51,296 bases of DNA from Bacteroidales bacterium (GTDB taxonomy: Bacteria; Bacteroidota; Bacteroidia; Bacteroidales; GCA-2748055), in contig JARGFM010000024.1 of the NCBI GenBank assembly GCA_029210725.1, positions 1 through 51,296 of the forward strand, given 5' to 3'. The notes beneath the pieces were generated by a model. That model was given only the letters and a program-made list of their open reading frames with translations. It was not told where the DNA came from and made no database searches. Below, piece after piece: positions 2,773 through 28,502 of this stretch; the first letter of the stretch is position 1, and each line of letters opens with the position of its first letter. The position numbers and the translations under genes are program-made.

Positions 2773-3351
2773 CTAACACCTTCTGAAAATGGTCCTCCAG
2801 ATTATAAGCAGGTCTCCAAAAAAGTTCATACTATGATAGTAATCCAGGTTGATTCTAACTTTATCCGGCCAAATCACCTCTTCATTGTATTTTATCGGAT
2901 CCTCCACTTTTGAAAGCAGTTCCTCCTCATTCGCATACTTCAAAGATGCCGGCCCTGTTATTCCAGGTCTTAGTTCCAGGATTAATAACTCTTCCCCGGA
3001 GAGCATTTTTGCATACCAGGGCATATCAGGTCTGGGCCCGACAAGGCTCATATCACCTTTGAGAACATTCCACAATTCAGGTAGTTCATCAAGCTTAAAT
3101 TTTCTAAGTATTCCACCCAATTTAGTTATCCTGCTTTCTCCTTTAATTGAAACTGTACTTCCTCTATGTTCAAGAAACATCGAACGGAATTTAACCAAGG
3201 TAAATTCCTTCCCCCATCTGCCAGCTCTCTGCTGGCGGAAGAAGACAGGGCCTGGCATCCTGATCTTAATCAGGACAGCAATCACTGCAAATAAAGGTGA
3301 AAGTATCAATAAACCCGATATGGAAACCACGATATCAAACAACCTTTTCAA
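2773..3351 (-). CDS. Short bacterial sugar transferase (phosphoglycosyl transferase) initiating EPS repeat-unit synthesis
   Basis: The 192-residue product belongs to the bacterial sugar transferase family (WcaJ/PglC core). It transfers a sugar-1-phosphate from a nucleotide sugar to undecaprenyl phosphate at the inner membrane, starting the repeat unit. The family signatures are visible in order: KRLFDIVVS followed by one hydrophobic re-entrant helix (about residues 2-30), PGPVFFRQQRAG, VKFRSM, KLDELPELWNVLKGDMSLVGPRP and RPGITGP. The length matches the monotopic PglC-like class rather than the long five-helix WcaJ type. Nothing indicates the sugar specificity. It sits near the 3' end of the operon, after a GNAT gene, an arrangement that resembles PglC/PglD-like acetylated-sugar modules, although the GNAT here is not a hexapeptide-repeat enzyme. 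Confidence 0.9.
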   Translation of the reverse strand: MKRLFDIVVSISGLLILSPLFAVIAVLIKIRMPGPVFFRQQRAGRWGKEFTLVKFRSMFLEHRGSTVSIKGESRITKLGGILRKFKLDELPELWNVLKGDMSLVGPRPDMPWYAKMLSGEELLILELRPGITGPASLKYANEEELLSKVEDPIKYNEEVIWPDKVRINLDYYHSMNFFGDLLIIWRTIFRRC

Positions 3352-3370: not shown

Positions 3371-3961
3371 CTAATTCTTAACGAATTCAACCAATAAAAA
3401 GTTGTTCTGGAGATGCTTTAAAATTATTATATGCTGGTTTTTTGAATGAGCCTGTATTACCAACGCATTATCCCGTGAAATGGTGGACATACAGCGGAAT
3501 CCCATTCTCCATGCAGTCTCATACATGATCTGATTCATGGCCACCCCAATCCCCTTTCCCCTATACTCCTTGTCAATCAGGCGGCCGACAAAACACTTCT
3601 TATTTATGAAAAAGCGTAGAAAAAAATAACCGATGAGAAAATCCTCATCAAACACCCCCATCATCACAAAGGATTTCTTCCTGAATTGTTTGCCTATTGC
3701 ATCCATATCAAAAGCATGCGGATTAAAATATTCCAGGTCGGCATGCGTTTGTTTCTTCACCAGTTCATATAACGATCTGGCATCTGGCAGGTTTAATCTC
3801 CTGAAAAAATAAGGCGATAGCAAGGCTTCTCCAATAACTTCCGCTACTTTCTGATCCATGCGCCCTTTGAAAATAAGGGTAAAAAACACATTATTTCCCC
3901 ATTCAATTAAGTTCCACAAAAAGCCTAGATGATGCTTAATATAAATCAGGATTTTCTCCAT
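3371..3961 (-). CDS. GNAT-family N-acetyltransferase
   Basis: The 196-residue product has the GNAT fold signature. The segment VGRLIDKEYRGKGIGVAMNQ (about residues 126-145) is the acetyl-CoA pyrophosphate-binding loop (R-G-K-G-I-G), preceded by beta strands (SFVMMGVFDEDFLIGYFFL). It would transfer an acyl group from acyl-CoA to an amine, presumably of a sugar or amino acid in the EPS pathway; the substrate cannot be read from the sequence. The gene starts 2 bases after the stop of the ATP-grasp gene upstream (3964-4959), so the two are almost certainly co-transcribed. The N-terminal 60 residues (ILIYIKHHLGFLWNLIEW) are partly hydrophobic, which may indicate membrane association. Confidence 0.75.
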   Translation of the reverse strand: MEKILIYIKHHLGFLWNLIEWGNNVFFTLIFKGRMDQKVAEVIGEALLSPYFFRRLNLPDARSLYELVKKQTHADLEYFNPHAFDMDAIGKQFRKKSFVMMGVFDEDFLIGYFFLRFFINKKCFVGRLIDKEYRGKGIGVAMNQIMYETAWRMGFRCMSTISRDNALVIQAHSKNQHIIILKHLQNNFLLVEFVKN

Positions 3962-3963
3962 AC

Positions 3964-4959
3964 TTAAACCCTGCTTAACTCATTTTTCAGGCCCTGTTTC
4001 ACCGGTAGCTGCCAAAGTAATTTACACCAATTATGATTGCCTTCGATCAATTGGGGTCCCCCTTTCGTTATAGCGATATCCCATCCTACCGATTTATTTT
4101 CTGAAGAGAACAAGGCAGCATCTTCAGCCAGTTTCATCACCTCACTCCAGAAGGGAATTTGGAATCCTTCAATCGCTATTCCGGTGACCGGGTGAATTGC
4201 CGTGTCATCTTTGGTAATATCACTATAGACACCGGGGCCACATACAATTCCTGAGCTTAGATCGACAGGGGCAGCCAGGTTGCCTGCTCCCATATTGTCA
4301 ACCGTTGAATTTACAGAAATCCGGAGCCGGGCTCCCAGAAAACTGACACTCCCGTCATGTACCTGAGTGAAGATCCTTACGGTATTCAGGCCGGAAGGAG
4401 ATAACTTCATTATAGAAGGGTGTTGTACCACATACTCTTCAAGCAGATCATAATCCTTCTTGGACATATAGTTAATTAGGGAGTCAGCAGTATACCCGGA
4501 AACGGAAATAACTTCCACTTCCGCACCAACCTGTCCGCGTGAATTCTTTAATACCAGACGTGCAGCAGGATCACTGAAAACTGTCTCCATGGCTTTAACA
4601 TTTTCCTTCAACTCCTTCAGGCTATAATACCTACGATTAACAAATTTCCCGAAATGATCCAAAAACTGTATCTTATTTTCGAGTAATTCTCTGCTCTTTT
4701 TAGGATTCATTGCAAGCTGGTACTCATACAGATATCCTGTTCCCGCCCATGTTTTCCGGTCAGACTTTTCCAGTTCAAAAAATCGAAAATAGAAATAATC
4801 CAGTATAGATATGTTATATCTGAAAACTGCACAAACTGCATCCGCGAAAACTCTGCATCCTGGTTTTGCAGTCTTATCAGTAGCATAACGAACAAACTTC
4901 CAGAGCTTTTTATAATCCGTCTGCTTAAAATAATATAACAGATATATGACCCTTCTCAT
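3964..4959 (-). CDS. Sugar-transfer-associated ATP-grasp protein (PF14397-like), copy A
   Basis: This 331-residue protein resembles the 'sugar-transfer associated ATP-grasp' family found in Bacteroidota capsule and EPS operons. Recognisable elements are LVLKNSRGQVGAEVEV (ATP-binding beta strand and glycine loop, about residues 138-153), YVVQHPSIMKLSP, LNTVRIFTQ, a mid-domain NMGAGNLAAPVD, and the C-terminal catalytic pattern GWDIAITKGGPQLIEGNHNW, whose Asp, Glu and Asn are the expected Mg-ATP ligands. ATP-grasp enzymes activate a carboxylate as an acyl phosphate and join it to an amine or thiol. The acceptor here is unknown. The gene lies 3 bases after its homologue (4963-6066), with which it shares the same domain plan, so the pair could form a heterodimer or act in sequence. 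Confidence 0.82.
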   Translation of the reverse strand: MRRVIYLLYYFKQTDYKKLWKFVRYATDKTAKPGCRVFADAVCAVFRYNISILDYFYFRFFELEKSDRKTWAGTGYLYEYQLAMNPKKSRELLENKIQFLDHFGKFVNRRYYSLKELKENVKAMETVFSDPAARLVLKNSRGQVGAEVEVISVSGYTADSLINYMSKKDYDLLEEYVVQHPSIMKLSPSGLNTVRIFTQVHDGSVSFLGARLRISVNSTVDNMGAGNLAAPVDLSSGIVCGPGVYSDITKDDTAIHPVTGIAIEGFQIPFWSEVMKLAEDAALFSSENKSVGWDIAITKGGPQLIEGNHNWCKLLWQLPVKQGLKNELSRV

Positions 4960-4962
4960 CTA

Positions 4963-6066
4963 TTAATAGTATTCCACATTTCTATAACAATTATCTAGTT
5001 CATCAATTTCTTTCTGATCCGGCCAGAAAGGTCCAAATACCGATTCGACTTCAACAAGAGCAGGACTGAATGCATTCCATTCTAAGAGCTTAGGTTCACC
5101 TGTCTCTGTAACACATACATCCCATCCAATAATCCTGAGATAAGGGCATTGAAGATGTGCAAACTTACATTTTTCCAGGATCTTATCAAATACGGGAATC
5201 TTCAAATCCCTATAGGCAAATCCTGTGTTTTTGTGCCTACCATCATCGGGAAGTAACAACTTACCAACGTATGCAACTTCAGAAGGTACCCCCTCAGGAC
5301 TGAAGTAAACAAATTGTCCACCAGATGTAAGATTGTCAACCTTTGAACCATCGCTACCAAACCTCAATGCTACGAACTTTACACTGACATTGCCCTCATG
5401 CCCTAAAAATGTCGTTACCCTAAAGGTATTTACACTATCCGGGTAAAGTTCATTAAGTGCCTTATATTGCTTAATAATTGGTTGAATTACATAATTCCGA
5501 TCCTTTCTTAACAGCTCAGCACTGAATTCGTTGGAATGAACAAACTGAATCTGTTTTCCTCCCCTACCGGCTTCTTGTTTGATTACTATGAGCCCATTAT
5601 ATTCAGACATGATACTTTTGACCTCTTCGGTACCCAATTTCTGCATATCCGGACCGAAAAACATACCTGATACGTAAGTAACTAGCGGGATAACTGCAAA
5701 ATCTTCAAAAAGCCTGTGATCCATAGTTTTCACATCGCTAAGTCTTCTGTAAATAGCGGGATTCGCTTTGGGTAAAAGGATATAACGATAATAATCAAAT
5801 GGTAACCAACCTTCAACAAATTTGCCCCTGATTTCCGTGTAGAAGGCCAGATAGGGCCAGTAAGCTGAACTGCCAAATCGCTGCTTGGCGTAACTTTTAA
5901 TCTGCTTCTTGATCTCCCGGTTAACAACTCGAAATCCTTTAATTCGAATAAGCTGCCTACGATTAACTCGTGCTATATATCTGGAGCGAACTAATAGCAG
6001 CCTAATGGTAAAAACTTGCCATTTACGCTTAAGTTTGAACAATCTGTTCTCTATTCTCACTTTCAT
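4963..6066 (-). CDS. Sugar-transfer-associated ATP-grasp protein (PF14397-like), copy B
   Basis: The 367-residue product shares its plan with the neighbouring ATP-grasp gene: a basic N-terminus, GLIVIKQEAGRGGKQIQFV (nucleotide-binding strand and Gly-rich loop, about residues 154-172), NYVIQPIIKQY, SVNTFRVTTF, the DNLTSGGQFVYF loop, and the terminal IIGWDVCVTETGEPKLLEWNAF with the expected Asp, Glu and Asn metal ligands. An acyl-phosphate ligase activity on a sugar or amino-acid carboxylate is inferred from the fold. Its start codon lies 38 bases inside the 3' end of the frameshifted QueC-like gene, so translation of the two was probably coupled. It is distantly related in sequence to the copy downstream, so they are old paralogues and not a recent duplication. 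Confidence 0.8.
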   Translation of the reverse strand: MKVRIENRLFKLKRKWQVFTIRLLLVRSRYIARVNRRQLIRIKGFRVVNREIKKQIKSYAKQRFGSSAYWPYLAFYTEIRGKFVEGWLPFDYYRYILLPKANPAIYRRLSDVKTMDHRLFEDFAVIPLVTYVSGMFFGPDMQKLGTEEVKSIMSEYNGLIVIKQEAGRGGKQIQFVHSNEFSAELLRKDRNYVIQPIIKQYKALNELYPDSVNTFRVTTFLGHEGNVSVKFVALRFGSDGSKVDNLTSGGQFVYFSPEGVPSEVAYVGKLLLPDDGRHKNTGFAYRDLKIPVFDKILEKCKFAHLQCPYLRIIGWDVCVTETGEPKLLEWNAFSPALVEVESVFGPFWPDQKEIDELDNCYRNVEYY

Positions 6067-6909
6067 GACTTATCCTGATAGAGTTTATATGATCTATTTG
6101 GAAGCTATCTCCAATTCCGGTCAATATACGCCAATTCCGGTTATAATACCCCTTTAGTTTCTTATCCAATTTCCTGCCAAAGGAATTTGCTTTCAAAAGC
6201 TTGTATAATATTCTGCCTCGCAAAGGGATCCGGTAACCCATACCCTTCTGCATAACCTGAGTACATGGTGTGCAAATCCCACAGGGTTCTCCCTTTAATG
6301 GATGGACACAAAACCAGGTTTTGGAAACAATATCACTAAATCCAAGCTTATTGTAGGATTCCAGGGTTTCCAATTTTGTCATATTATTGAGTGGTAAAGG
6401 AAACCGAAAATAACCATATAAATCCTGCAAAAACTTTTCTGACTTATCCCTGTTTAGTTCCCGATAGGCAATATAAGTTCCTCCTTGAACGGGCACCGAT
6501 ACTTCTGCAAACTCACTGTATTTTAAGAAAAGATATCCTAGTTTTCCCACCGGATTATGCTCGATTCCGATCTCAAGACTAAGATTGTATTGTTTAGCGT
6601 ATCTTGACAACAACTCGTACTGGCGGCCAATTGGAATTTCTTCACATATTTTTTTATACGCAAAGCTAATATCTTCGTCTGCATAATTTCCTCCTGGTTA
6701 AAAACTATTATAGGAAGAAAACGGCACTTTGTTGATTCCCGTTCCTCAAGATGTTCTCTTATGGCCTTAATTGCCTGCAGCTCATTGGGAACAGATTTCT
6801 TTCTGGCCTTCATATAGTAGGGCTGTATTTCTACCTCCAGAAGTGACAACTCACAAATCCTATATGTTGAATCGAATCCTCCGGTCCAGAGTATATCAAC
6901 TCTATGCAT
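6029..6909 (-). pseudogene. QueC-like PP-loop ATPase, frameshifted copy 1
   Basis: Two overlapping reading frames (6538-6909 and 6029-6613) together make one QueC-like protein homologous to the intact gene next door (7017-7802). The first frame gives the PP-loop WTGGFDSTYR and runs to FNQEEI. It then leaves homology, while the frame beginning at about 6682 continues with ADEDISFAYKKICEE and the Cys motif FCVHPLKGEPCGICTPC. Compared with the intact copy, one base is missing near position 6683, where the paralogue has two ATT codons after GAGGAA. There is no obvious slippery heptamer at the site. The C-terminus runs past the paralogue's stop (after NRNWR) through a short internal duplication of ACCGGAATTGG. 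This is either a recent pseudogene or a base-calling error. If it is real, the second fragment still holds the Cys cluster but not the PP-loop. Confidence 0.75.
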
Positions 6910-7016
6910 GATATAAAGAATGATTATAAAAAAATGAAAATGAAACCAAAAGTCGCAACTGCTAATACCTATGCTCAGATTTCATTATATAAGTAATTCA
7001 TAATGATTCATTTACT

Positions 7017-7802
7017 CTATCTCCAATACCTGTTATAATACTTTTTAAGTTTCTTATCCATTTTTCTTCCTAAGGAATTTGCTTTCAACAATCTGTACAA
7101 AAGCCTTCCAGTTTGTGGTATCCGATGAGCTATTCCGGTCTCCATAACCTGGGTACATGGCGTACAAATCCCGCATGGCTTTTTGAAGATCGGATGGGCA
7201 CAAAACCATGTCATAGGGATAAGCTCTTCAAAACCAAGTTTTTTATATGCTTCTATAACCTGAAGTTTGGTCAATTGAAAGAGTGGAAGTGGGAATCGAA
7301 AGTTTCCATATAGATCACACAAAAACTTCTCAGATTTTACTTTGTCCAAGGCTTGATATTTAATGAATCCTCCCCCTTTAATTGGCTTGGAGACTCCCTC
7401 AACAGATCCATATTTCTCAAATAATCCCTCTACTTTACTGTTTGGTTGATGCTCAATACCAAGCTCAATTGAAAGATTTTCTTGTCTGGCATATTGTGAT
7501 AAATACTTATACTGGGTACCGATTTTATTAATCTCACATACCTTCCTGTAGGCACTAGATACCTCTTCATCAATAATAATTTCCTCCTGGTTAAAGATTA
7601 ATAAAGGAAGAAAACGACACTTTGTTGATTCCCGTTCCTCAAGATGTTCTCTTATGGCCTTAATTGCCTGCAGCTCATTGGAAACAGATTTTTTTTTGGC
7701 TATCATATAATGAGCCTGAATTTCCACTTCCAGAAATGATAACTCACAAATCCTATATGATGAATCTAAGCCTCCTGTCCAGAAAATATCTACTCTTTGC
7801 AT
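7017..7802 (-). CDS. QueC-like PP-loop ATPase, intact copy 2
   Basis: The 261-residue protein has the two hallmarks of 7-cyano-7-deazaguanine synthase (QueC): an N-terminal PP-loop (WTGGLDSSYR, residues 8-17) that binds ATP for adenylation of a carboxylate, and a C-terminal zinc-type cluster with Cys201, Cys210, Cys213 and Cys216 (C-x8-C-x2-C-x2-C), the spacing used by QueC. It is a divergent branch seen in Bacteroidota polysaccharide clusters, not a queuosine gene: no queD, queE or folE-type partner is adjacent. QueC turns a carboxylate first into an amide and then a nitrile with ammonia and ATP; a comparable step on a uronic acid or another EPS precursor is my inference. It is a tandem paralogue of the frameshifted copy downstream and of 7853-8608 upstream. 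The conserved C-terminus is basic (LDKKLKKYYNR-like). Confidence 0.82.
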   Translation of the reverse strand: MQRVDIFWTGGLDSSYRICELSFLEVEIQAHYMIAKKKSVSNELQAIKAIREHLEERESTKCRFLPLLIFNQEEIIIDEEVSSAYRKVCEINKIGTQYKYLSQYARQENLSIELGIEHQPNSKVEGLFEKYGSVEGVSKPIKGGGFIKYQALDKVKSEKFLCDLYGNFRFPLPLFQLTKLQVIEAYKKLGFEELIPMTWFCAHPIFKKPCGICTPCTQVMETGIAHRIPQTGRLLYRLLKANSLGRKMDKKLKKYYNRYWR

Positions 7803-7852
7803 CTTGATTTAAGAAAATTATGAAAGATTAAAATAACCGGAAGTCCTTGCAG

Positions 7853-8608
7853 TTAGTACTTATGCTCAAACTTCCTTTTTATATAACGAAATACCTTGCT
7901 CGAATCCTGCCGGTGATAGTTTTTCCTCCAGAATTTCCTCAAAGGGATAACCAGCCAGGCCTTCATGCGAGTGAATAAGGGAAACCTGAAACCCATCCCG
8001 GCCATGACAGCATCGCTGCATGGCCCGCAGGTTCCACACGGAGAAATCTTCTTTTTAGGACGGTGGCAGAATGAGGTCCTGATTAAAATTTCGTGCCAAC
8101 CACCCTTTCTGGCGATACTGAACATTTCCTTTTTCGTTAGGTTTATGGTGGGGTATCGAAAGGGTGTAAATGCTTTACACTTTTCAAAATCCTTAAAGAA
8201 TGGTTTATCTCTGGTAACTCTGGTCAGCGCCACTTCAATTTCTTCGATATCGAAAGCTTTGCAATAGCAGGACATGACATCATACTGTTCTGTTACCTTG
8301 TCTAGATTCCTTAATTCATTGATATGGCCGATCACATCCTCATCCCTGGGTATCAAACCTTCGTTCACGTAGATGGTGGGAAGAAAGCGGGATCCTACTT
8401 CCGGATATTTCCGTACAATCATGCGTCTGAGATAGATCATGGTGTCAATCTCGATGCCCGTGGAAGACTCATACCTGACAAGGTAGTGAGGCTGTACGGT
8501 ATTTTCTGAGGTCAGCAGCAACTGAATAATCCTGAAGGTGGAGTCGACACCACTGGTCCAGAATACATTTACAACATTGCTGTTTCCCGGTATATCAGTA
8601 TTATTCAT
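7853..8608 (-). CDS. QueC-like PP-loop ATPase, divergent copy 3
   Basis: The 251-residue third member of the trio keeps the PP-loop (FWTSGVDSTFR, residues 16-26) and a Cys cluster at Cys181, Cys191, Cys194 and Cys197, here with one extra residue in the first spacer (C-x9-C-x2-C-x2-C). The PP-loop differs from the usual SGGxDS by a Ser in place of the first Gly. It is far less similar to copies 1 and 2 than they are to each other, so it is an older paralogue and may act on a different substrate or as a partner subunit. It follows the deacetylase gene (8613-9488) by 4 bases and precedes copy 2 by 50 bases. Function is inferred from fold and context; the true substrate is unknown. Confidence 0.78.
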   Translation of the reverse strand: MNNTDIPGNSNVVNVFWTSGVDSTFRIIQLLLTSENTVQPHYLVRYESSTGIEIDTMIYLRRMIVRKYPEVGSRFLPTIYVNEGLIPRDEDVIGHINELRNLDKVTEQYDVMSCYCKAFDIEEIEVALTRVTRDKPFFKDFEKCKAFTPFRYPTINLTKKEMFSIARKGGWHEILIRTSFCHRPKKKISPCGTCGPCSDAVMAGMGFRFPLFTRMKAWLVIPLRKFWRKNYHRQDSSKVFRYIKRKFEHKY

Positions 8609-8612
8609 GGTG

Positions 8613-9488
8613 CTATAGTCTTATATTGAGCTCACTCATGATTACTTTGCTGAGCGAATCAAATTCATATGCGCCCAAAAATTTACTAAGCTTGGGTATC
8701 ACTGTTTTCCTGTTAAACCAGTATGCCTGTAGTTGCAATCTTGCCTTGATGGAAGATTTTCTGACCTGATCCATATAAAAGTCCTGGAAAGGCGGGGGAT
8801 CAATTTCATAGGGGTGCATGTACATATTGACGGGTCTTTTACCCGATATTTTATTCATGGCAAATTTATTCATCCCGTAGGGAAAGATGCGTAAATATCC
8901 ACCCCCGCATACCGGAAATTCACGATTAAGAATGCTTAATGTGGACATGGGGGCTTCTATGATCTCAGTGCCATTCCGGAGGCTGATCCTCCTGATATCT
9001 TTTTGAAAACCAGGCCAGCCATACCTGCCCGTTCCCGCCGGGAAAATGCTGCTATCATATTTCAGGCCGGCTTCCACCAGGACTTCCAGTACCCAGGAAT
9101 TTTCCTGGTTAATGGAGAATGCCGGGGCACGATGGCCAAGCACCTGCTGTCCTGAAACGTCCTCCACCTCCTGTTTAGCCCTTTTCAGCTCGGAAAATAC
9201 CTGCTTCCTGTTCAGTTTATCATATCTGGTATGTGAATAACCATGGATCCCCAGTTCATTTCCACGATTTGCTATTTCCCTGACAAGTTCAGGATATGTT
9301 TCTGCCACTTCACCGAGGATGAAAAATGTTGCCTTTGTATGAAAGAAATCAAAAAGGTCCAGCAACTTCAGCGTATTCTCCTTCACCCTGTAGGTTGGTG
9401 CCATATCCCTGGCAAAGAAGTATCTCATGGCCAGATTAACAGCATCTTCCACATCAACGGTAAGGGCATGAATCATGTCAGTTCTCAT
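8613..9488 (-). CDS. NodB-type polysaccharide deacetylase (XrtA-type/DUF3473-like)
   Basis: The 291-residue product is a carbohydrate esterase family 4-type deacetylase. The motifs are in the expected order: TVDVED (residues 10-15, catalytic and metal-binding Asp), IHGYSHTRY with His82 and His86, GHRAPAFS (119-125), YDSSIFPAG, and a late MYMHPYEIDPP. The last region and the GGGYLRIFP segment are characteristic of the deacetylases that accompany EPS and exosortase clusters (DUF3473 at the C-terminus). It would remove N-acetyl groups from amino sugars, on the growing glycan or a precursor. There is no signal peptide, so action in the cytoplasm is likely. Translation may start at Met1 or Met5; Met1 overlaps the upstream ATP-grasp gene by 11 bases, consistent with translational coupling. 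Confidence 0.88.
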   Translation of the reverse strand: MRTDMIHALTVDVEDAVNLAMRYFFARDMAPTYRVKENTLKLLDLFDFFHTKATFFILGEVAETYPELVREIANRGNELGIHGYSHTRYDKLNRKQVFSELKRAKQEVEDVSGQQVLGHRAPAFSINQENSWVLEVLVEAGLKYDSSIFPAGTGRYGWPGFQKDIRRISLRNGTEIIEAPMSTLSILNREFPVCGGGYLRIFPYGMNKFAMNKISGKRPVNMYMHPYEIDPPPFQDFYMDQVRKSSIKARLQLQAYWFNRKTVIPKLSKFLGAYEFDSLSKVIMSELNIRL

Positions 9489-10683
9489 GGCGTTTACGTC
9501 TGGAAAATTTCCTTCTCAACTTATTCAAGTTAACATATTGCCTGATGTTGGTCAGCACATATCCCAATGAAATAAAGGGATCATCCCACCTGAAATTCTG
9601 GTAATAGGTGTTCCTGCCGAAAAAACTAAAAAAGAATGGATCAGACTTTCTGAGCGTGCTAAAAGAAACAGCAAGCATCCATGGAAGTTCGAGAAGCATA
9701 TTCCTTAAAATAATCCCCTTTTTATACGCGCCGGAGAGGACCTCTTTGCTGCCAAACACTTGTTCATAGTGAAACATGGCGACATCAATACCCGATTCAA
9801 AGACTACCCGGACCATGGCTCCGACTCGTGGATTAATCTCGATCACTTTGGCTGTATTATCTCTTTCATCCATGATAAGATCGAGGTTTGCACTACCGAC
9901 CCATCCGATCTTCTCCATTAATTCAATCACAATCGATTGAATATCTGTCTGAGCTGTTGTGACACTACAACTACTTGTCCCTCCCGAAACAGGAAAGTAA
10001 CGTTCTTTCCTGATTACAGCACAGAACCTGACCTTTGATTTCCTGTCACAGAATACCTCAACGGTGTACTGTACCCTGTTTGGAATATACTCCTGAATCA
10101 GCAGTGACCCATACTCCTTTTTCAGACTATTAAGTTTAAGGTCCAGTTCATGGGCATCAGATAAGACGTAAACCCCTTCCGAACCTACTCCTGTCCTCGG
10201 CTTCACCACCTGGGGGAACTGAATATCCTCAACAATCTTTTGCATATCGATTTTTTCCGGATCAATGGTATGAGGACAGGAAATACCCTTCTCCATGCAA
10301 AACTGCATGGTTAGGAGTTTGTCCGCAGCAAGCCTGAAGACCGGGAATTCAGGAACGATAATATTCGTCAATTCCTGAAGCTTTTCCTTATGCCGCGACA
10401 ATAGTTTTGCAGTCTTATCCCCAAGGCCCATTACCAAATCAACTCTATGGTTGCTCAGGAAGTCTGACAAACGGCCTACTGTATCCGCTTCATCCCGGTA
10501 TAATAAAGGCCAGACCAGTTTTTCGCTGGCATATCTGGAAAAGTATCCCGAACTCATCCTGTGCGGGATCACTATTGTAATAAAACAAGCTGCCCTGTAC
10601 AGGGACCTGATCATAGGAAGGCACTGACTGCTGCTCCCGTCCAACACCAGGATATGCTTCTCTTTGCTTTTCTTATCCATCAT
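9478..10683 (-). CDS. ATP-grasp ligase (carbamoyl-phosphate-synthetase-like)
   Basis: I place the start at the Met-Met pair at 10678-10683, giving about 401 residues (MMDKKSKEKHILVLDGSS), because the longer frame would overlap the upstream GNAT gene by 110 bases and its extra 33 residues look unlike the family. The remaining protein has a Rossmann-like pre-ATP-grasp domain (HILVLDGSSSQCLPMIRSL), then the ATP-grasp core: FPQVVKPRTGVGSEGVYVL (nucleotide-binding loop, about residues 150-170), LLIQEYIPNRVQYTVEVF and the catalytic VIEINPRVGAMVRV. This is the CPSase-large-subunit or biotin-carboxylase-like subclass, different from the other ATP-grasp proteins in the cluster. It should couple a carboxylate to an amine via acyl phosphate. 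The C-terminal 80 residues are an unassigned extension. Confidence 0.82.
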   Translation of the reverse strand: MMDKKSKEKHILVLDGSSSQCLPMIRSLYRAACFITIVIPHRMSSGYFSRYASEKLVWPLLYRDEADTVGRLSDFLSNHRVDLVMGLGDKTAKLLSRHKEKLQELTNIIVPEFPVFRLAADKLLTMQFCMEKGISCPHTIDPEKIDMQKIVEDIQFPQVVKPRTGVGSEGVYVLSDAHELDLKLNSLKKEYGSLLIQEYIPNRVQYTVEVFCDRKSKVRFCAVIRKERYFPVSGGTSSCSVTTAQTDIQSIVIELMEKIGWVGSANLDLIMDERDNTAKVIEINPRVGAMVRVVFESGIDVAMFHYEQVFGSKEVLSGAYKKGIILRNMLLELPWMLAVSFSTLRKSDPFFFSFFGRNTYYQNFRWDDPFISLGYVLTNIRQYVNLNKLRRKFSRRKRHEN

Positions 10684-11194
10684 ACAATCTGCCTGGTGTG
10701 AAGAATAACAAACGCTTCTGGGATTTCCGATAGTAGCCCTTAAACTCAAATCCAGCCTTCTTGCAAAGGGCAATGGAAGCATGGTTCTTGTCGTGGGTCA
10801 TATACCAGACGCTCCTGCCTTCGCGGTAACTCAGATAATTGGCAACAAGTATCAGATCATTAGCCAGTCCCTTGCCCCGGTAATCCGGATGGGTGTACAC
10901 ATATTTGAACTGGACATCATTCTTCCGCATAAACGGCCACAAATAAAAGGCAGGTACACACACAAGCGAAGAAACGACCCGCCCGTCATGCATCATCACA
11001 TAGGCCCCGTATGAACTGTTCTTAAATATGTGAAAAAAATGAGCCAGGCTGAGAAGTGCCAGAGGCAAACCTGTATTGGGTGGTATAAACCTGAACAGGG
11101 AAGGCCTCCAGTCCTTGATGGAATACTCCATTCGCGTTTTGGGTGCTGTAGCTTCTTTGTCCAGCTCTTTCGAAAAAACCAGGATTCTTTTCAT
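10673..11194 (-). CDS. GNAT-family N-acetyltransferase
   Basis: The 173-residue product has a clear GNAT core: GAYVMMHDGRVVSSLVCV (beta strands), then YVYTHPDYRGKGLANDLI with the acetyl-CoA binding loop R-G-K-G-L-A, and ASIALCKKAGFEFKGYY near the C-terminus, the usual N-x-x-A-x-x-L-Y-x-K-x-G-F-type motif. It overlaps the upstream glycosyltransferase gene by 4 bases and the downstream ATP-grasp gene by 11, so it is translationally linked to both. Pairing of a GNAT with an ATP-grasp ligase fits a pathway that acylates an amino group and ligates a carboxylate on an EPS sugar; that is inference, and the substrate is unknown. Confidence 0.78.
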   Translation of the reverse strand: MKRILVFSKELDKEATAPKTRMEYSIKDWRPSLFRFIPPNTGLPLALLSLAHFFHIFKNSSYGAYVMMHDGRVVSSLVCVPAFYLWPFMRKNDVQFKYVYTHPDYRGKGLANDLILVANYLSYREGRSVWYMTHDKNHASIALCKKAGFEFKGYYRKSQKRLLFFTPGRLYDG

Positions 11195-12396
11195 ATATGC
11201 TCCAGCTGTTCCATAATCAAACCATAAGCTTCCTGAACCGTATATTTTTCTTCCAGGAGACGGCCTGCGTTGACTCCCATCGATTTCCGTTCGACCGTGT
11301 TCTCCGAAAAATACTTCAGCTGTTCTGTAAATGCATCCAGATCTCCGTGTTCAATGGATTTTCCGCAGGCGTATTCTTCCACGATCGTCCCAATATCCGT
11401 ATTGCTGTTTACCGCGCAAAGAGCGGGTTTTTGCATATCCAGGTAACTTAGTAAGCGGGATGGGAACTGGGGGATGGTATACTTCTTGTCCAGCAATATA
11501 AGCCCCACATCACTGGTGCCAAGTAATTGCTTGAAATCTTCCGCCGGCAGGCGCTTGTATAACAGCACGTTCTGGAGATTCATTTGTTGAATCGCTTTCT
11601 TCAGGTAGGAGAAGTGGGTCCCTGATCCCCCGATGAGAAAATACGCATCTGGATAATCCGCCAGCTTCCCCATCGCCTCCACCAGGAAGGGCAGGCCGTG
11701 ACCCCTGGCTAGATTTCCACTGAAAATAAACACACAGGCTTTATCCGGGATTCCATACCTGTGCCTGATGGCAGTATGGTCAATGGTTACGGGCTTATCC
11801 GTGGGCCTGATGGAATTGGGACATACCTGCACCTTCCCGGCCGGAAGATAATTGTTATGTTTCAGGAGATAATCCCTGTTCATGGGAGACATGGTCCCGA
11901 GCACATCTGCCACCCTGTAAGTAGCTTTTTCATGATAGCGAAGAAACTGCCAGATAATACTGTATTTCCGGAAAACCCCCAGGTCTACAGAACCCTGGGG
12001 CCAGATATCCTTTACCAGCAGATAGAACCTGGCCTTGTAGTTCTTCTTCAGCTTTTTAAAGAGGGCCGACAGGGTTACGGGTGGTGTGGAGGCAATGATC
12101 AGGTCAAAGCTTTCTTCTCCATAAAATTCTCTGATGGATCTCAGCATTTTACGGCCAAGAGATAATAATGTCACGGCCTTCTTCAGGTATGTCGTCTTTG
12201 CAATCCGTGCTGAAGGTATTCTTAAGACCTGAATGCCATCTTCCTTATTCAGGCTGGGTCGGGCCCCTACCGTTGCGTGGTCTGAACAGGCAACCATTAC
12301 CTGATGTCCCTTACTTACAAAGGCTGTCATCAGGTCTGTATAAAGGTTTCTTTCCCCTGGACCCGGCCAGGCAATTGAAATCAAGAGGACTTTCAT
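11191..12396 (-). CDS. GT4-family glycosyltransferase (WbuB/WcaI-like)
   Basis: The 401-residue product is a retaining GT-B glycosyltransferase. The N-terminal acceptor domain starts MKVLLISIAWPGPGERNLYTDL; the C-terminal GT1/GT4 domain shows CVFIFSGNLARGHGLPFLVEA, YFLIGGSGTHFSYLKK, VLLYKRLPAEDFKQLLGTSDVGLI and the donor-binding FPSRLLSYLDMQKPAL (the counterpart of the E-x7-E region). The overall style matches WbuB/WcaI-type enzymes that transfer an amino or deoxy sugar onto a lipid-linked acceptor at the cytoplasmic face. Donor and acceptor are not predictable by eye. It overlaps the following GNAT by 4 bases and lies 1 base after the previous glycosyltransferase. Confidence 0.87.
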   Translation of the reverse strand: MKVLLISIAWPGPGERNLYTDLMTAFVSKGHQVMVACSDHATVGARPSLNKEDGIQVLRIPSARIAKTTYLKKAVTLLSLGRKMLRSIREFYGEESFDLIIASTPPVTLSALFKKLKKNYKARFYLLVKDIWPQGSVDLGVFRKYSIIWQFLRYHEKATYRVADVLGTMSPMNRDYLLKHNNYLPAGKVQVCPNSIRPTDKPVTIDHTAIRHRYGIPDKACVFIFSGNLARGHGLPFLVEAMGKLADYPDAYFLIGGSGTHFSYLKKAIQQMNLQNVLLYKRLPAEDFKQLLGTSDVGLILLDKKYTIPQFPSRLLSYLDMQKPALCAVNSNTDIGTIVEEYACGKSIEHGDLDAFTEQLKYFSENTVERKSMGVNAGRLLEEKYTVQEAYGLIMEQLEHI

Positions 12397-12397
12397 A

Positions 12398-13549
12398 TTA
12401 GTTTTTAAATATCCAAAGGAGTGTCCTGGCAGCCTCCCTGACCCTTATATTGTAATCTTCGTAATGATTAATGAGCCTGTCTCTTGCTGGATAGTCTTTC
12501 AAAATCTGCATCAACTCTCCCACCTGATCAGGATCAAAGAAAGTCCCGGCCTCTCCCAGTTGCTCCATATTTACCCGCAGGTTTGATGCAATAACAGGAA
12601 CCTGCAGGGATTTTGCATCTTCTATTACCGTGCTCCAGCCTTCAAACTTACTTGGCTGGATAACCGCAGCGGAATACTCCATGATCTTCAATTGATCCTT
12701 TCTGGGAATAACACCTAAAAAACGAACCTGATCCTCCAGCTTGTTCGATTCTATGATTTCATTCAGATCATTCAGGTAGGGAGAATCGGAATCCTGGGGC
12801 AGCTTCCCCGTAATGAGCAGATATATTTTATGCCCTTCCTGCTTGAGTCCGGCCACAGCCTGAAGGACTACTCTGTGATTTTTGTGTTTATGGAACTGAT
12901 TGGATATAAGGTAGTAGTTTTCCGGTAAATTGTATCGGGGACGTAGATCTTCAATTAAGATATCTGGTGAATCATCTTTAATTGATACGAAACGATAAAT
13001 ATGAATTTTTGTCTTTTTCCTTACCCTGTAAAAAGTCTCCAGATCGTTTTTTGCATCCAGACTTGAAACCACAAAATGGTTCGTATGCCGCAAAGCTAAT
13101 TTCAGCCTTGTGGTTCTTCCCAACAGCTGAATCCTCGTAAAAAACTCCGGATAGTATTTATATTGAAAATCTGCTATCCAGGACACTAATTTCACATTTG
13201 TTCTGACGGCAAGCGGATAATCCTGTAAGGGAAATACCGTATCCAGCTCGTATCTGGAGAGTATGGGGGATATAAAGACATTCCTTCTTTTGATCCATGA
13301 TTGCATATGTCCTCTGGCTATGGACGGGAAATGCCATTCTACCAGATTCAAATAAGGATATTCGATATCCTTGACAAAATCCGAGAACTCGCTTCTGTAG
13401 AAAAGATAAATCTCTGGCTTTTCTTCGTTGTCCAGGTAGGAAAGTGTCCTGATAATATTCTTTATATATACGGCACCCCCCATCCAGGATGGCTCAAATT
13501 TGAGTAATATGCCCAAGCTAAGCCTTCTTCTCCGTCCGCTATGATCCAT
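12398..13549 (-). CDS. GT4-family glycosyltransferase
   Basis: The 383-residue product has the GT-B C-terminal pattern: YYLISNQFHKHKNHRVVLQAV (first strand of the donor domain), IYLLITGKLPQDSD, VRFLGVIPRKDQLKIMEYSAAVIQPSKFEGWSTVIEDA with the E-x7-E type donor-binding glutamates, and VPVIASNLRVNMEQLG. The N-terminal half carries WMGGAVYIKNIIRTL, the usual glycine-rich acceptor-domain loop. It abuts the gmd gene with no spacer at its 5' side. This context makes a GDP-6-deoxyhexose-derived donor plausible, but specificity is not visible in the sequence. Confidence 0.85.
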   Translation of the reverse strand: MDHSGRRRRLSLGILLKFEPSWMGGAVYIKNIIRTLSYLDNEEKPEIYLFYRSEFSDFVKDIEYPYLNLVEWHFPSIARGHMQSWIKRRNVFISPILSRYELDTVFPLQDYPLAVRTNVKLVSWIADFQYKYYPEFFTRIQLLGRTTRLKLALRHTNHFVVSSLDAKNDLETFYRVRKKTKIHIYRFVSIKDDSPDILIEDLRPRYNLPENYYLISNQFHKHKNHRVVLQAVAGLKQEGHKIYLLITGKLPQDSDSPYLNDLNEIIESNKLEDQVRFLGVIPRKDQLKIMEYSAAVIQPSKFEGWSTVIEDAKSLQVPVIASNLRVNMEQLGEAGTFFDPDQVGELMQILKDYPARDRLINHYEDYNIRVREAARTLLWIFKN

Positions 13550-14602
13550 CTATCTGTCTAACTTAAGCTTACGGGATAATATTTTTTTCTCATTGGGATA
13601 ATTCCATGCATCCCAGGCAAAATGTTCCCCATTGCTCCAGTTCTTCCAGCGTCTAAGATCAGAATCCAACATGATTTCCGCAAGACCTGTAAACTTTGTG
13701 TTGGGCTGCCATCCAAATTTGTCCTGGGCCTTCTTATAATCTCCTTTAAGATACTGAACGTCCACAGGTCTCATGAAACGTTCATCAATCTTAACATACT
13801 CCTGCCAGTCCAGGTTCACTGCTTTAAAGACCACTTCAAGAAACTCCCGGATTGTATGGGTTTCATTGGTGGCAATTACATAGTCATCTGCCTGGTCTTC
13901 CTGTAAAATCATCCACATGGCTTCCACATATTCAGGTGCATAGCCCCAATCCCTCCTGGCATCAATATTGCCCAGATCGATATGGTCTTCCAGGCCCAGG
14001 CTAATCTTGGCAACAGCATTGGTAATTTTACGGGTCACAAACTCCAACCCACGCAAGGGACTCTCGTGGTTGAACAGGATACCGCAGCTGGCAAAAAGGT
14101 TGTAACCCTTTCGATAGATCTTTACCATATTGTGCGCTAAAAGCTTGGATGCAGCGTATGGACTTGAAGGATCAAAGGGGGTATCCTCCGATTGATCAGT
14201 AAACAGATTGTCGCCATACATCTCACTTGTGGAAGCCTGATAAAACTTCACATCAGGAGCAATATTCCTGATCGCCTCCAGGAATCTAATCACACCTAAG
14301 CCCGTGATCTCTGCTGAGGCCAGGGGCTGTTCGAAGGAAGCTCCCACAAAACTCTGTGCAGCAAGGTTATATATCTCATCGGGTTTTGAAATCTTGATAG
14401 CCTCAGTAATGGAAAAGCTATCCAGCAAGTCGACAGGTAAGAGTTCTACTTGATCAAAAATGGAAAGGTACTGTAGTCTCCAGAAATTGGGAGTTGAAAG
14501 TCTGCGATAGGTCCCGTATACCCTGTAGCCCTTCTCCAGTAAAAGCTTTGCCAGATAGGCACCATCTTGTCCTGTTATACCTGTTATTAATGCATGTTTC
14601 AT
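13550..14602 (-). CDS. gmd: GDP-mannose 4,6-dehydratase
   Basis: The 350-residue product converts GDP-D-mannose to GDP-4-keto-6-deoxy-D-mannose, the branch point to GDP-fucose, GDP-rhamnose and GDP-perosamine. I start it at MKHALITGITGQDGAYLAK because this ATG overlaps the upstream stop as ATGA; an upstream ATG (14626) would add eight residues. The NAD(P)-binding GITGQDG motif, FYQASTSEMYG, PYAASKLLAH (catalytic Tyr and Lys), GILFNHESPLRG, and NIDARRDWGYAPEYVEAMW are all typical of Gmd, with ATNETHTIREF and a R-P-V-D-V-Q-Y-L-K-G-D segment near the C-terminus. The partner immediately upstream is another SDR enzyme (14599-15504). No GDP-fucose synthase with certain identity and no aminotransferase lie in the window. 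Confidence 0.93.
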   Translation of the reverse strand: MKHALITGITGQDGAYLAKLLLEKGYRVYGTYRRLSTPNFWRLQYLSIFDQVELLPVDLLDSFSITEAIKISKPDEIYNLAAQSFVGASFEQPLASAEITGLGVIRFLEAIRNIAPDVKFYQASTSEMYGDNLFTDQSEDTPFDPSSPYAASKLLAHNMVKIYRKGYNLFASCGILFNHESPLRGLEFVTRKITNAVAKISLGLEDHIDLGNIDARRDWGYAPEYVEAMWMILQEDQADDYVIATNETHTIREFLEVVFKAVNLDWQEYVKIDERFMRPVDVQYLKGDYKKAQDKFGWQPNTKFTGLAEIMLDSDLRRWKNWSNGEHFAWDAWNYPNEKKILSRKLKLDR

Positions 14603-15504
14603 AAATGCTGGTGTTTTTTTATCCATTCATAATATTCTTTCAGCCCAAGTGCCAGATTGTAAGAAGGATTATATCCCATTCCTGACAATTTATGCAGGTC
14701 TGCCCTCCAGTTAATCGGATCACCTTCTCTTTCTTCCCCTGTAAAGGTATATTCCATCCCACCCTCGAAGTAACTGAAAAACACGGAGACGGCCTCTTCA
14801 ATCCGAATCTCTATTCCATTGGCAACATTAATGGTATCCGCCGTAAAATCTGCTTTCTTAATTATTAACTCAATGGCTTTAACAAGATCAGCTATGTAGA
14901 TAAAATCACGTGATTCCTTGCCGGTGCCAAAAAGATTGACTGTTTGGCCTGACCTGGCCTTCTGGTACAAATCCCAGAACAATTGCTTCTGTAAACCGAT
15001 GCCATAGACTGAGAAAAGCCTCAGGGAGCAGGTCGGTATCCCATACAACCGATAGAATTCCTCGCAGATCTGTTCAGCCATCAATTTATGTAACCCATAC
15101 GGAGAAATTGGATCCAGTGTTGCAGATTCTTCAATGGGCAGGCTCACCGGATTCCCGTAAACCGCAGCACTCGACAGATTTATAAACTTGCAGGAATCCT
15201 GATATTCTTTTATGGCATCCAGGATCCTGAATACGTTTACAGTATTCAAAAAATAATCCCTAACGGGATTTTTCAGAGATTCCAGGACACTGGCAGCACC
15301 TGAGCAATTAATACAGATATCAAAATCATGGTGTTTGAAAATCTCCTTGTAATCAGAATTCGATGCATCGATTAGAAAATACCCTTCCCTCTTCGAATAG
15401 TCTACCACCACATCTGCCTCGTAAATGGTATTCCCTTTCTGAGTTAAATAGGCGGATAGGTGACTTCCGATAAAGCCTTTTGATCCGATAATAATTATTT
15501 TCAT
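14599..15504 (-). CDS. NAD-dependent sugar-nucleotide epimerase/dehydratase/reductase (extended SDR)
   Basis: The 301-residue protein is an extended SDR acting on a nucleotide sugar. It shows GSKGFIGSHLSAYL (NAD(P)-binding G-x2-G-x2-G, residues 8-21), INLSSAAVYGNP (active-site Ser), ISPYGLHKLMAEQ (catalytic Tyr-x3-Lys), RLFSVYGIGLQKQLFWDL and DFIYIADLVKAIELI. Translationally it is coupled to gmd by a four-base ATGA overlap. The likeliest role is the second step after Gmd, such as reduction to GDP-D-rhamnose (Rmd-like) or epimerisation-reduction to GDP-L-fucose, but a UDP-sugar 4-epimerase role cannot be excluded by reading alone. It follows the GT4 gene 15507-16604 by 2 bases. Confidence 0.8.
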   Translation of the reverse strand: MKIIIIGSKGFIGSHLSAYLTQKGNTIYEADVVVDYSKREGYFLIDASNSDYKEIFKHHDFDICINCSGAASVLESLKNPVRDYFLNTVNVFRILDAIKEYQDSCKFINLSSAAVYGNPVSLPIEESATLDPISPYGLHKLMAEQICEEFYRLYGIPTCSLRLFSVYGIGLQKQLFWDLYQKARSGQTVNLFGTGKESRDFIYIADLVKAIELIIKKADFTADTINVANGIEIRIEEAVSVFFSYFEGGMEYTFTGEEREGDPINWRADLHKLSGMGYNPSYNLALGLKEYYEWIKKHQHL

Positions 15505-15506
15505 TG

Positions 15507-16604
15507 CTAAAGATCGTTAATAAAACGGTAAAATGCCTCTCCAATCAAGTCGTGAGAAGACTTTTTTATGCTTTCCCGGGCATTGTTCCCCATGCGCTCC
15601 CGAAGGGTTTCATCTGAAATCAACTGAGCTAGTTTCGCTTCAAAGGCTTTCTCATCAAATAGCGGAATAAGGAATCCATCGTGCCCATCGCTTATCATTT
15701 CGGAAGGACCTGCCACACAATCAAAGGCGACGACAGGTAAAGCTGCAGCCATTGCCTCCCCGATAGCATTTGGAAATCCCTCGGAACTGGAAGTAAAGGC
15801 AAATATGGAGCTTCTTAGGTAAAGTTCTTCAAGATCTCCCTTCTTACCTGTAAACTGGATCTGATTTTCCATATCCAGGTTTCTTGCCAGTGCCTTCAGA
15901 TTCTCCATGTTGCTTTGTTTCAGATGATCATAACCCACCAGAACAAGCTTCCAATCCGGAGGGCTAACCCTGGCAAACATCTTTATCAGCAAATCCTGGT
16001 GCTTGCTCTTGATAAAGCGGCCAACCATCAGTACCAGCTTTTCTCTTAGCTCTTCCGTTTTTCCTGAATCGGTCTGCCTGATTGGATTACCGATGACTGC
16101 AATATTGGGATGCCTGTGCTTTCTCAGGAAGATCTCTCTGGCTTTTTGGGTCTGAAATATCAGTCCCTGGGCTGAGGGATAAAGCCATTTTCTCAGCCTG
16201 TCGTGCAATTGTCCCAGGCTTTTATCGGGTTGACTGCGATCTGAGACGTAAACCGGAAATTTCAGCCTCAGGAGGGATAGCAACACGAAATTATTCCAGT
16301 ATTCACCAAAGCTCAGTATCCGGTGAGGCTTAATCTTTTTGACGGTATTCCTCAGATAAAACAGCGTACGTATGGTACAGATAGTACGGTACCGGTTATC
16401 GAATTTAAAGTCGGGCCTGTATACCCGGGCCGATTCTGGAATCGGGAAAAATATTGTACGGTTAATGCCGTACAGAACCAGGTGCAATTCCACATCCTTC
16501 TTAGTGGAAAAGTACCATGCCAGCTCTGACATCACCCGTTCCATTCCTCCCGCCTGAAGGGATGGTATGATTAAACAAATCTTACTTTTTCCAAGCTTTT
16601 CCAT
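15507..16604 (-). CDS. GT4-family glycosyltransferase
   Basis: The 365-residue product is a textbook GT4 enzyme. The N-terminus has ICLIIPSLQAGGMERVMSELAWYF (Gly-rich loop), and the donor domain has LVLMVGRFIKSKHQDLLIKMF, WKLVLVGYDH, IQFTGKKGDLEELYLRSSIFAFTSSSEGFPNAIGEAMAA with the E-x7-E pair (EGFPNAIGE), and VAFDCVAGPSEMISDGHDG. It adds one sugar to the lipid-linked EPS repeat at the cytoplasmic membrane face. The end of the domain (LVPLF-like region followed by AKLAQLISDETLRERMG) is usual for the family. Specificity is unknown. Confidence 0.9.
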   Translation of the reverse strand: MEKLGKSKICLIIPSLQAGGMERVMSELAWYFSTKKDVELHLVLYGINRTIFFPIPESARVYRPDFKFDNRYRTICTIRTLFYLRNTVKKIKPHRILSFGEYWNNFVLLSLLRLKFPVYVSDRSQPDKSLGQLHDRLRKWLYPSAQGLIFQTQKAREIFLRKHRHPNIAVIGNPIRQTDSGKTEELREKLVLMVGRFIKSKHQDLLIKMFARVSPPDWKLVLVGYDHLKQSNMENLKALARNLDMENQIQFTGKKGDLEELYLRSSIFAFTSSSEGFPNAIGEAMAAALPVVAFDCVAGPSEMISDGHDGFLIPLFDEKAFEAKLAQLISDETLRERMGNNARESIKKSSHDLIGEAFYRFINDL

Positions 16605-16628
16605 ACGTATAAATAGAAGAACTCGGGC

Positions 16629-17648: not shown

Positions 17649-17651
17649 CCT

Positions 17652-18974: not shown

Positions 18975-18975
18975 A

Positions 18976-20106: not shown

Positions 20107-20124
20107 TAAATCACTTGCTATTTG

Positions 20125-23553: not shown

Positions 23554-23569
23554 GCAGGTCTGAAGTCGG

Positions 23570-24553: not shown

Positions 24554-24573
24554 ACAATGATTTAGTTTTTTCT

Positions 24574-26040: not shown

Positions 26041-26111
26041 ATCTGATTAAACAGAAGACCTAACATATAATAAACTGGATGATTTGAAGGTTTTACCCTT
26101 AAAATAAAAGA

Positions 26112-28499: not shown

Positions 28500-28502
28500 G
28501 AA

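Follow-up and report, generated by a model that had tools for sequence, protein, structure and literature searches.

Enzymes of the QueC superfamily activate a carboxylate with ATP and then join it, as an amide, to ammonia in the case of QueC or to a protein amine in the case of Cap9, so that Cap9 represents QueC-type chemistry with an amine nucleophile (as described in parts of PMC13329287, PMC13279940 and PMC11996544). In the field of surface glycans, passages of PMC10607449 implicate the PP-loop/zinc protein NASAT (WbpG/WbuX) in the conversion of sugar N-acetyl groups during lipopolysaccharide (LPS) biosynthesis. Moreover, a TupA-like ATP-grasp forms amides at the C6 carboxylate of glucuronic acid in the Campylobacter jejuni capsule (a section of PMC11800379), and tupA has been connected with teichuronopeptide, which is built from glutamate and glucuronic acid as a polymer (a section of PMC8153356). 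Here we analysed a contig of 51,296 nucleotides from a Bacteroidales bacterium (JARGFM010000024.1; the whole stretch is called the window), which carries three QueC-like PP-loop genes, A, B and the split copy C, within an exopolysaccharide cluster (Table 1). We regard it as an even call whether the products of A and B, and of C when intact, are AMP-forming, zinc-dependent enzymes that form amides on a carboxylate of the polymer or of one of its building blocks.

The predicted structures, together with the sequences, assign to the family made up of A, B, C and their relatives a PP-loop nucleotide hydrolase fold with a full PP-loop, an invariant Glu and four Cys at the spacing of the QueC zinc site. 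The AlphaFold2 (AF2) model of B has a mean predicted local distance difference test score (pLDDT) of 94.5 and a predicted template modelling score (pTM) of 0.90, that of A a pLDDT of 89.3. For B, the first Foldseek matches are QueC (3bl5, E 1.2e-5) and Cap9 (9nto, E 1.9e-5), and the same two entries are again best for A. Among the PDB sequences, a profile of the family finds 3bl5 first (E 7.4e-6), followed by 2pg3 (E 3.1e-4). The AF2 models thus agree with the original prediction of a QueC-type fold with zinc-site cysteines, and the lack of fold or zinc site that it had named as contrary evidence was not seen. In profile-profile comparisons (hhalign), the family aligns with 13 canonical QueC sequences, part of 19 control QueC proteins from genomes that also hold the family, at 97.1% over 188 columns, compared to 4.5% over 14 columns, all within the PP-loop, for 12 WbuX-family amidotransferases; as a yardstick, QueC and WbuX align with each other at 94.6% over 112 columns. 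Judged by these profiles, the family is an uncharacterised branch of the QueC superfamily and not of NASAT.

Apart from the fold, family and QueC have in common the PP-loop, the Glu of the QueC motif YxQxHxxE, mostly a Lys before the zinc site and the pattern C-x8-C-x2-C-x2-C, which is exact in B and the C fragment and has x9 in the first gap of A. The Lys reaches at least 90% in an alignment of 55 rows, but not in one of 86 rows. In the latter, W8, T9, G11, S14, E43, Q97, C201, C210, G211, C213 and C216 (numbering of B) are invariant in all 86 members. Since entry into this alignment required WT[GS]G..[SC], and nine of the 93 family open reading frames (ORFs) were dropped because they failed this filter or were short, the invariance of the PP-loop is partly by construction; W8 is not invariant across the whole family, as two dropped members carry F or Y instead (FTGG in L038, YTGG in L055). 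The relatives of A, B and C are nevertheless not a product of chance, as tblastn confirms them in 243 stretches of other genomes and the full-length pattern recurs in the 86 aligned members. Of these members, 70 match Pfam PF06508 at E<=0.01 (best 6.9e-10).

Starting from motifs of the family itself and an alignment of ten rows, we scanned 84,980 species genomes and obtained 243 stretches in other genomes that tblastn confirmed. The best 80 of these relatives gave the 79 loci analysed here, in which genes were called as simple ORF picks. They belong to 11 phyla, namely Bacteroidota, Bacillota, Pseudomonadota, Synergistota, Chlorobiota, Nitrospirota, Chloroflexota, Spirochaetota, Thermodesulfobacteriota, Elusimicrobiota and Verrucomicrobiota. 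In a phylum sample, relatives occur in eight of 394 other genomes, and among 198 genomes of the same order only the source genome has the family, which is thus patchy. Viral contigs scanned with B gave 48 pattern matches and no relatives, and plasmids and phages gave no tblastn match for B. More than one family ORF is present in 12 of the 79 loci; in L021, a single broken gene accounts for both ORFs, and this gene is absent from both the 86-row alignment and the tree of 101 rows, from which pieces shorter than 180 aa and L012 were likewise left out. In one Mariniphaga genome the family genes number at least five and are spread over three contigs: L017 has three, L031 has one and L021 the broken one.

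In the reaction proposed for A and B, ATP would bind at the PP-loop, the carboxylate would be adenylated with release of pyrophosphate, and an amine, either ammonia or that of a substituent, would attack the acyl-adenylate to yield the amide and AMP. In the cluster, the carboxylate most likely to be used would belong either to a repeat-unit sugar or to a small acid or an amino acid attached as a substituent. Amines on the sugars would be freed by the deacetylase or deacetylases nearby, and further acyl or amino-acid groups would be attached by the adjacent ATP-grasp and GNAT enzymes. The divergence of the paralogues A and B suggests that each has its own carboxylate or amine partner. Elsewhere among bacteria, the scaffold probably serves pathways without a link to glycans. 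Amide formation as such is supported by the TupA-like ATP-grasps among the neighbours of family genes, since their family includes a proven glucuronic-acid amidoligase. More tentatively, this phylum-spanning QueC branch could provide bacterial surface glycans with zinc-dependent amide synthetases of the AMP-forming type that act on the same polymers as neighbouring ATP-grasp amidoligases, the paralogues (A versus B and C) determining the carboxylate and the amine to be joined.

The gene neighbourhoods of the 79 loci were evaluated with context profiles built from family loci and window proteins, the neighbour classes being named from one representative each or from the window protein. ATP-grasp genes make up 24 of the 284 genes within 1.5 kb of the PP-loop gene compared to 14 of the 858 genes beyond (Fisher p 4e-7; 9e-6 for a radius of 2 kb and 1e-3 for 3 kb), and 19 of the loci, from five phyla, have one within 1.5 kb. 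Glycosyltransferases show no distance gradient around the PP-loop gene in these loci. Across all family loci, 38 of 1142 genes are ATP-grasps and 77 of 1142 glycosyltransferases. As a control we used the surroundings of canonical queC in 19 genomes, picked by flank length from 26 over the cut-off, where the corresponding counts are 0/302 and 3/302; the family loci of the same 19 genomes have 7/305 (3/19 loci) and 21/305 (8/19 loci), a contrast that is biased upward because the profiles derive from, and thus favour, family loci. In the phylum sample (nine loci from eight genomes, 1.5 kb flanks) TupA or PF14397 is matched in six loci from five genomes, a set that is not fully independent since two loci repeat the PP-loop sequences of L062/L086 and L013/L014 overlap. 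By the profiles, a glycan core gene (glycosyltransferase, sugar transferase, UDP-sugar dehydrogenase, polymerase or flippase) is present in 37 of the 79 loci, an ATP-grasp in 26 and either of the two in 39. The association with glycan genes is therefore real but partial, lying above background in about half of the loci. The link to exopolysaccharide genes that had been claimed from the window holds to this extent and not as a general rule, and the outcome of no such link at all did not appear.

Several observations weigh against glycan amide formation by the family. No uronic-acid-forming dehydrogenase was found among the 30 window proteins covered by the Pfam scan (the ORFs at 32.4-51.3 kb lie outside it), so that these genes do not identify the carboxylate of the window cluster. 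The template modelling scores of the A and B models to the QueC and Cap9 entries are modest, 0.43-0.68 overall and 0.43-0.57 to QueC, and for B the structures of MnmA, TtuA and YcfA follow closely behind in the Foldseek search, so that the fold alone does not set the family apart from sulfur-transferring enzymes. Immediate neighbours are diverse: 127 of 152 were scanned, with long and some short ones left out by hand, and fall into 112 Pfam families, none of them above 6/127, the commonest being TupA-like PF14305 (6), PF14397 (6), GT1/GT4 glycosyltransferases (6), PF14518 (6) and phosphoenolpyruvate (PEP) mutase (4). Finally, the profiles identify no glycan-core gene and no ATP-grasp in 40 of the 79 loci, hence a glycan substrate is not shown as a family trait. 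These 40 are probably an overcount, since the profiles miss glycan genes: in a set of 22 loci, most of them selected because no profile had matched but some with matches, the 108 neighbours include four that match PF01943, one UDP-galactopyranose mutase and one TupA.

The same diversity bears on the possibility that the product of the enzymes, an amide or another activated acid, is a small molecule formed as a precursor or on the side, which would not have to enter the polymer, and that the gene merely travels with the exopolysaccharide cluster. In line with this, about half of the kept loci lack a glycan gene by the profiles, PF14518 lies beside the PP-loop gene in six Lysobacteraceae loci and a probable PEP mutase in four Steroidobacteraceae loci, and as many as 149 Pfam families are represented among the neighbours of the 22 loci, most of which come from Bacteroidota and Bacillota. 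Nevertheless, we consider it unlikely for the window, as ATP-grasp genes are specifically close in five phyla and the window genes lie inside the cluster at 4-107 nt from each other. On the tree, the glycan context changes at least 16 times for 93 labelled rows (counted without a shuffle control), meaning that it was switched often. Given this switching and the diverse non-glycan loci, the chemistry and not the polymer is likely to be the common denominator of the family.

QueC activates an amide in the second step of its own reaction, a precedent for a NASAT-like role in which the family would activate the amide oxygen of an N-acetyl group and add ammonia to give an acetamidino group, as functional analogues of WbpG/WbuX. 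NASAT, moreover, is likewise a PP-loop protein with a four-cysteine zinc site and acts in LPS biosynthesis (according to sections of PMC10607449). We nevertheless rate this role as distinctly improbable. TIGR03573, the NASAT model, is absent from the matches of the 86 members at E 0.01 and has no match in the source genome at E 1e-20; together with the alignment to WbuX over 14 PP-loop columns, this rules out membership in NASAT itself. In addition, the adjacent deacetylase would be expected to strip the very N-acetyl groups that such an enzyme needs.

PP-loop enzymes such as LarE, TtuA, MnmA and YcfA-type proteins transfer sulfur or other atoms. A corresponding function, with a thiocarboxylate or thioamide as product, could be read from the next Foldseek matches of B (MnmA/TrmU, TtuA and YcfA) and from TrmU, YcfA and LarE being matched by A as well. 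It appears very unlikely, however, as QueC and Cap9 are best by both sequence and fold, the cysteine spacing is that of QueC, and the first 25 families listed in each of the neighbour tallies (of 112, 149 and 110 families) include no sulfur carrier.

QueC and Cap9 being the closest fold matches, the family could also be a divergent 7-deazaguanine enzyme, engaged in preQ0 synthesis or in protein deazaguanylation like Cap9 or QatC. The QueC signature comprises the PP-loop, YxQxHxxE, VPxRN, YPDC and the zinc cysteines, and replacing the Arg of VPxRN or the Tyr of YPDC by Ala abolishes queuosine formation (both in parts of PMC13329287). Compared to this signature, the family PP-loop usually starts with WT instead of xS, only the Glu of YxQxHxxE is kept, GxQY stands in place of VPxRN, and nothing conserved corresponds to YPDC. 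The scores of A, B and the C fragment are 12.3, 17.6 and 16.4 bits with TIGR00364 (curated cut-off 150.3) and 16.5, 20.1 and 20.7 bits with PF06508, below the Pfam gathering score of 22, and the PADLOC QueC model gives A 12.7 and B 27.2 bits compared to 57.9 for true QueC. Among the 30 scanned window proteins there is neither queD nor queE, and the source genome has no canonical QueC above the family cut-off, in agreement with the original statement that no queuosine gene is around. The TIGR00364 scores, the substrate motifs and the missing queD/queE neighbours thus rule out that A, B or C is a canonical QueC. A and B are probably not engaged in preQ0 synthesis, given the lack of conservation at YPDC and VPxRN and the absence from the genome of any QueC above the cut-off. 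In the 50 tested genomes holding the family, which cover 50 of the 79 loci and whose completeness is not stated, a separate canonical QueC is present in 26, so that the family is not a general replacement of QueC.

A QueD-like gene of the source genome, at 84.1 bits under a cut-off of 89.25, could provide a supply of 7-carboxy-7-deazaguanine (CDG). The Tyr/Asp motif that recognises CDG has no conserved counterpart in the family, though, and no defence gene was found among the 30 scanned proteins, glycan genes surrounding A, B and C instead. A defence protein of the Cap9/QatC type was ruled out, as there is no defence operon (CD-NTase or qatA/B/D) and PADLOC scores are low. Taken together, a 7-deazaguanine enzyme of either kind is highly improbable. 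Nitrile formation on a glycan carboxylate, which had been offered as an option and for which QueC itself provides the example, is hardly credible, since the VPxRN Arg and YPDC Tyr required for queuosine (PMC13329287, in part) are not conserved in the family.

With regard to the genes themselves, the three tandem QueC-like genes of the original prediction amount to two intact ones, A and B, and a third, C, that is frameshifted, with its halves in different frames. The predicted PP-loop and QueC-type Cys cluster are indeed present in A and B, and in C they lie on separate halves. Residues 1-80 of B align to positions 6670-6909 at 78% identity and residues 76-261 to 6128-6685 at 60%; the frame break is placed near 6670-6685 because these two parts meet there in different frames. 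The break could stem from a recent mutation or from faulty assembly. A programmed frameshift was discarded, as a slippery heptamer is not evident by eye near 6670-6685. A and B share about 29% identity. On the tree, A clusters with L073/L074 from Chitinophagaceae (support 95/98 for the four-row set), while B and C stand together (100/100) with L015 from Prevotellaceae as neighbour (97/76), which rules out three equal tandem copies, A belonging to another clade than B and C.

Over their first 79 codons, B and C have 85% nucleotide identity, a synonymous divergence (dS) of 0.38 and one identical run of 64 bases. Over the last 182 codons, nucleotide identity is 63%, dS about 2.2, thus near saturation, and the ratio of nonsynonymous to synonymous divergence (dN/dS) about 0.15. 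As far as these codons tell, B and C are old paralogues over the last 182 of them, and gene conversion of the 5' part, within positions 6670-7802 of the window, with the frame break at the conversion edge, is likely. C was evidently under selection until recently, unless the break is an assembly error.

The exopolysaccharide cluster revealed by the Pfam scan runs on the minus strand from an export protein at about 29.3 kb to the initiating sugar transferase at 2.8 kb. The gene order is deacetylase, A, B, C and two PF14397 ATP-grasp genes, and the Pfam matches confirm the predicted position of the PP-loop genes between deacetylase and ATP-grasps. The gaps are 4 nt (deacetylase-A), 50 nt (A-B) and 107 nt (B-C), and the ORF of C overlaps the first ATP-grasp ORF. 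Because of the common strand and the tight spacing, these genes appear to form a single operon. In total, four genes of the window encode ATP-grasps, two are of the GNAT type and one or two of the deacetylase type; by its annotation, this set would suit several amide-linked decorations. Inside the cluster, a DUF362 protein is encoded at 17652-18974; DUF362 is frequently associated with iron-sulfur proteins.

Table 1. PP-loop genes and surrounding features of the window
Feature	Position	Strand	Remarks
PP-loop gene A, 251 aa	7853-8608	minus	WTSGVDS, TSFCHRP, C-x9-C-x2-C-x2-C
PP-loop gene B, 261 aa	7017-7802	minus	WTGGLDS, GTQY, TWFCAHP, C-x8-C-x2-C-x2-C
PP-loop gene C, N-terminal half	6538-6909	minus	WTGGFDS; frame lost near 6670-6685
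PP-loop gene C, C-terminal half, other frame	6029-6613	minus	Cys cluster, C-x8-C-x2-C-x2-C
Polysaccharide deacetylase	8613-9488	minus	PF01522 + PF11959/DUF3473; 4 nt upstream of A
PF14397 sugar-transfer associated ATP-grasp 1	4963-6066	minus	E 1.8e-32
PF14397 sugar-transfer associated ATP-grasp 2	3964-4959	minus	E 1.5e-44
ATP-grasp_3 / carbamoyl-phosphate-synthase-like ATP-grasp	9478-10782	minus	Pfam/profile match
RimK-like ATP-grasp, same cluster	16629-17648	minus	Pfam match
376-aa protein	18976-20106	minus	no Pfam match; putative second deacetylase-type enzyme
GNAT-like acyltransferase	3371-3961	minus	scores slightly below Pfam cut-offs
GNAT acyltransferase	10673-11194	minus	Pfam match
Initiating sugar-phosphate transferase	2773-3351	minus	PF02397
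Remaining cluster	11191-29321	minus	glycosyltransferases, GDP-mannose dehydratase-like genes, DUF362, EpsG, flippase, chain-length/AAA protein, export protein

Parts of this gene set recur in individual loci. The loci closest to the window genes closely resemble each other. Homologues of the window's deacetylase stand alongside the PP-loop genes in L015, L073 and L074, so that the deacetylase family is shared by the loci of the sequences most closely related to A (L073/L074) and to B (L015). A homologue of the window ATP-grasp_3 directly adjoins the PP-loop gene of L015, and homologues of the RimK-like gene are present in L030, L033 and L041. In L093 of Thioalkalivibrio versutus, a locus of the glycan type, the PP-loop gene adjoins a PF14397 ATP-grasp gene. 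Relatives of the 376-aa protein share loci with PP-loop genes in L073 and L074, in the latter directly after the tandem PP-loop pair, where the homologue has a weak GH57 match just below the cut-off; the 376-aa protein may represent a new deacetylase-type family. L015, L073 and L074 also have a gene of the ketoacyl-acyl-carrier-protein (ACP) synthase III type (cluster c14, named from the L015 member at 7466-8772), in L015 beside a 79-aa ORF of acyl-carrier size. Such genes hint at unusual acyl or N-acyl groups; none was found among the scanned window genes.

In six Lysobacteraceae loci (L059, L067, L070, L072, L075 and L088, near 9 kb), a haem-oxygenase-like PF14518 gene (c13) adjoins the PP-loop gene, a pairing that suggests a separate small-molecule pathway. 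In four Steroidobacteraceae loci (L056, L063, L071 and L083, near 10.8 kb), a gene for 274-291 aa (c26) directly follows the PP-loop gene and, judged by count and size, is probably the PEP-mutase match of two neighbour tallies, the later of which covered 101 of 142 listed neighbours. A further cluster of proteins of about 500 aa (c9; no Pfam match in the one member scanned) occurs in L024, L028, L037, L042, L050, L053 and L064 and is concentrated near the PP-loop gene, with 7/331 genes within 2 kb, 5/358 at 2-5 kb and 1/453 beyond.

In a partial literature search, we found no report of this QueC-like family in glycan clusters; the queC in the consulted part of PMC8757827 is an ordinary one. 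The 2026 survey of PF06508 (PMC13329287) treats the largest clusters, with the O-antigen enzyme WbpG in its cluster 5, and its main text contains no word beginning with polysaccharide, glycosyl, capsul, exopolysaccharide, ATP-grasp or deacetylase. Within the literature searched, the enzyme family and its association with ATP-grasps appear to be new to print. The chemistry itself, which the original prediction took to be new to glycan clusters, is known in kind, both as amides formed on capsule sugars by TupA-like ATP-grasps and as PP-loop/zinc enzymes of O-antigen synthesis such as NASAT (sections of PMC11800379 and PMC10607449). What would be new, if true, is a QueC-type AMP-forming enzyme of this family that performs amide chemistry on glycans; the chemistry of QueC, which has until now been connected with 7-deazaguanine in tRNA, in DNA and in proteins of defence, would thereby gain an additional and much broader role in the decoration of bacterial surface polymers. 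The family is a ready target, being small and confidently modelled, with a clear signature and with TupA-like ATP-grasps as neighbours, a class for which some substrates have been established.

Compared to the known systems, the family differs from canonical QueC in its gene neighbours. Its fold is also that of Cap9 (from type IV CBASS, the cyclic-oligonucleotide-based anti-phage signalling system) and of QatC (from qatABCD). Cap9 provides the precedent for amide formation with an amine in place of ammonia, but retains the Tyr/Asp site for CDG, to which the family has no conserved counterpart. QatC too lacks the CDG-binding Tyr/Asp, from which its authors conclude that another substrate is possible (a section of PMC13279940), and has N- and C-terminal extensions, unlike the family. 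NASAT/WbpG/WbuX (TIGR03573) shares with the family the PP-loop, a four-cysteine zinc site and a place in surface-glycan biosynthesis, whereas its Cys arrangement differs (as given in parts of PMC10607449) and the alignment stops at the PP-loop. The TupA-like ATP-grasps (the C-terminal domain of Cj1438; PF14305 by name), finally, have a fold unrelated to the PP-loop fold of the family, yet they are frequent direct neighbours of its genes, and their product, an amide on a sugar carboxylate, is the outcome proposed here for A and B.

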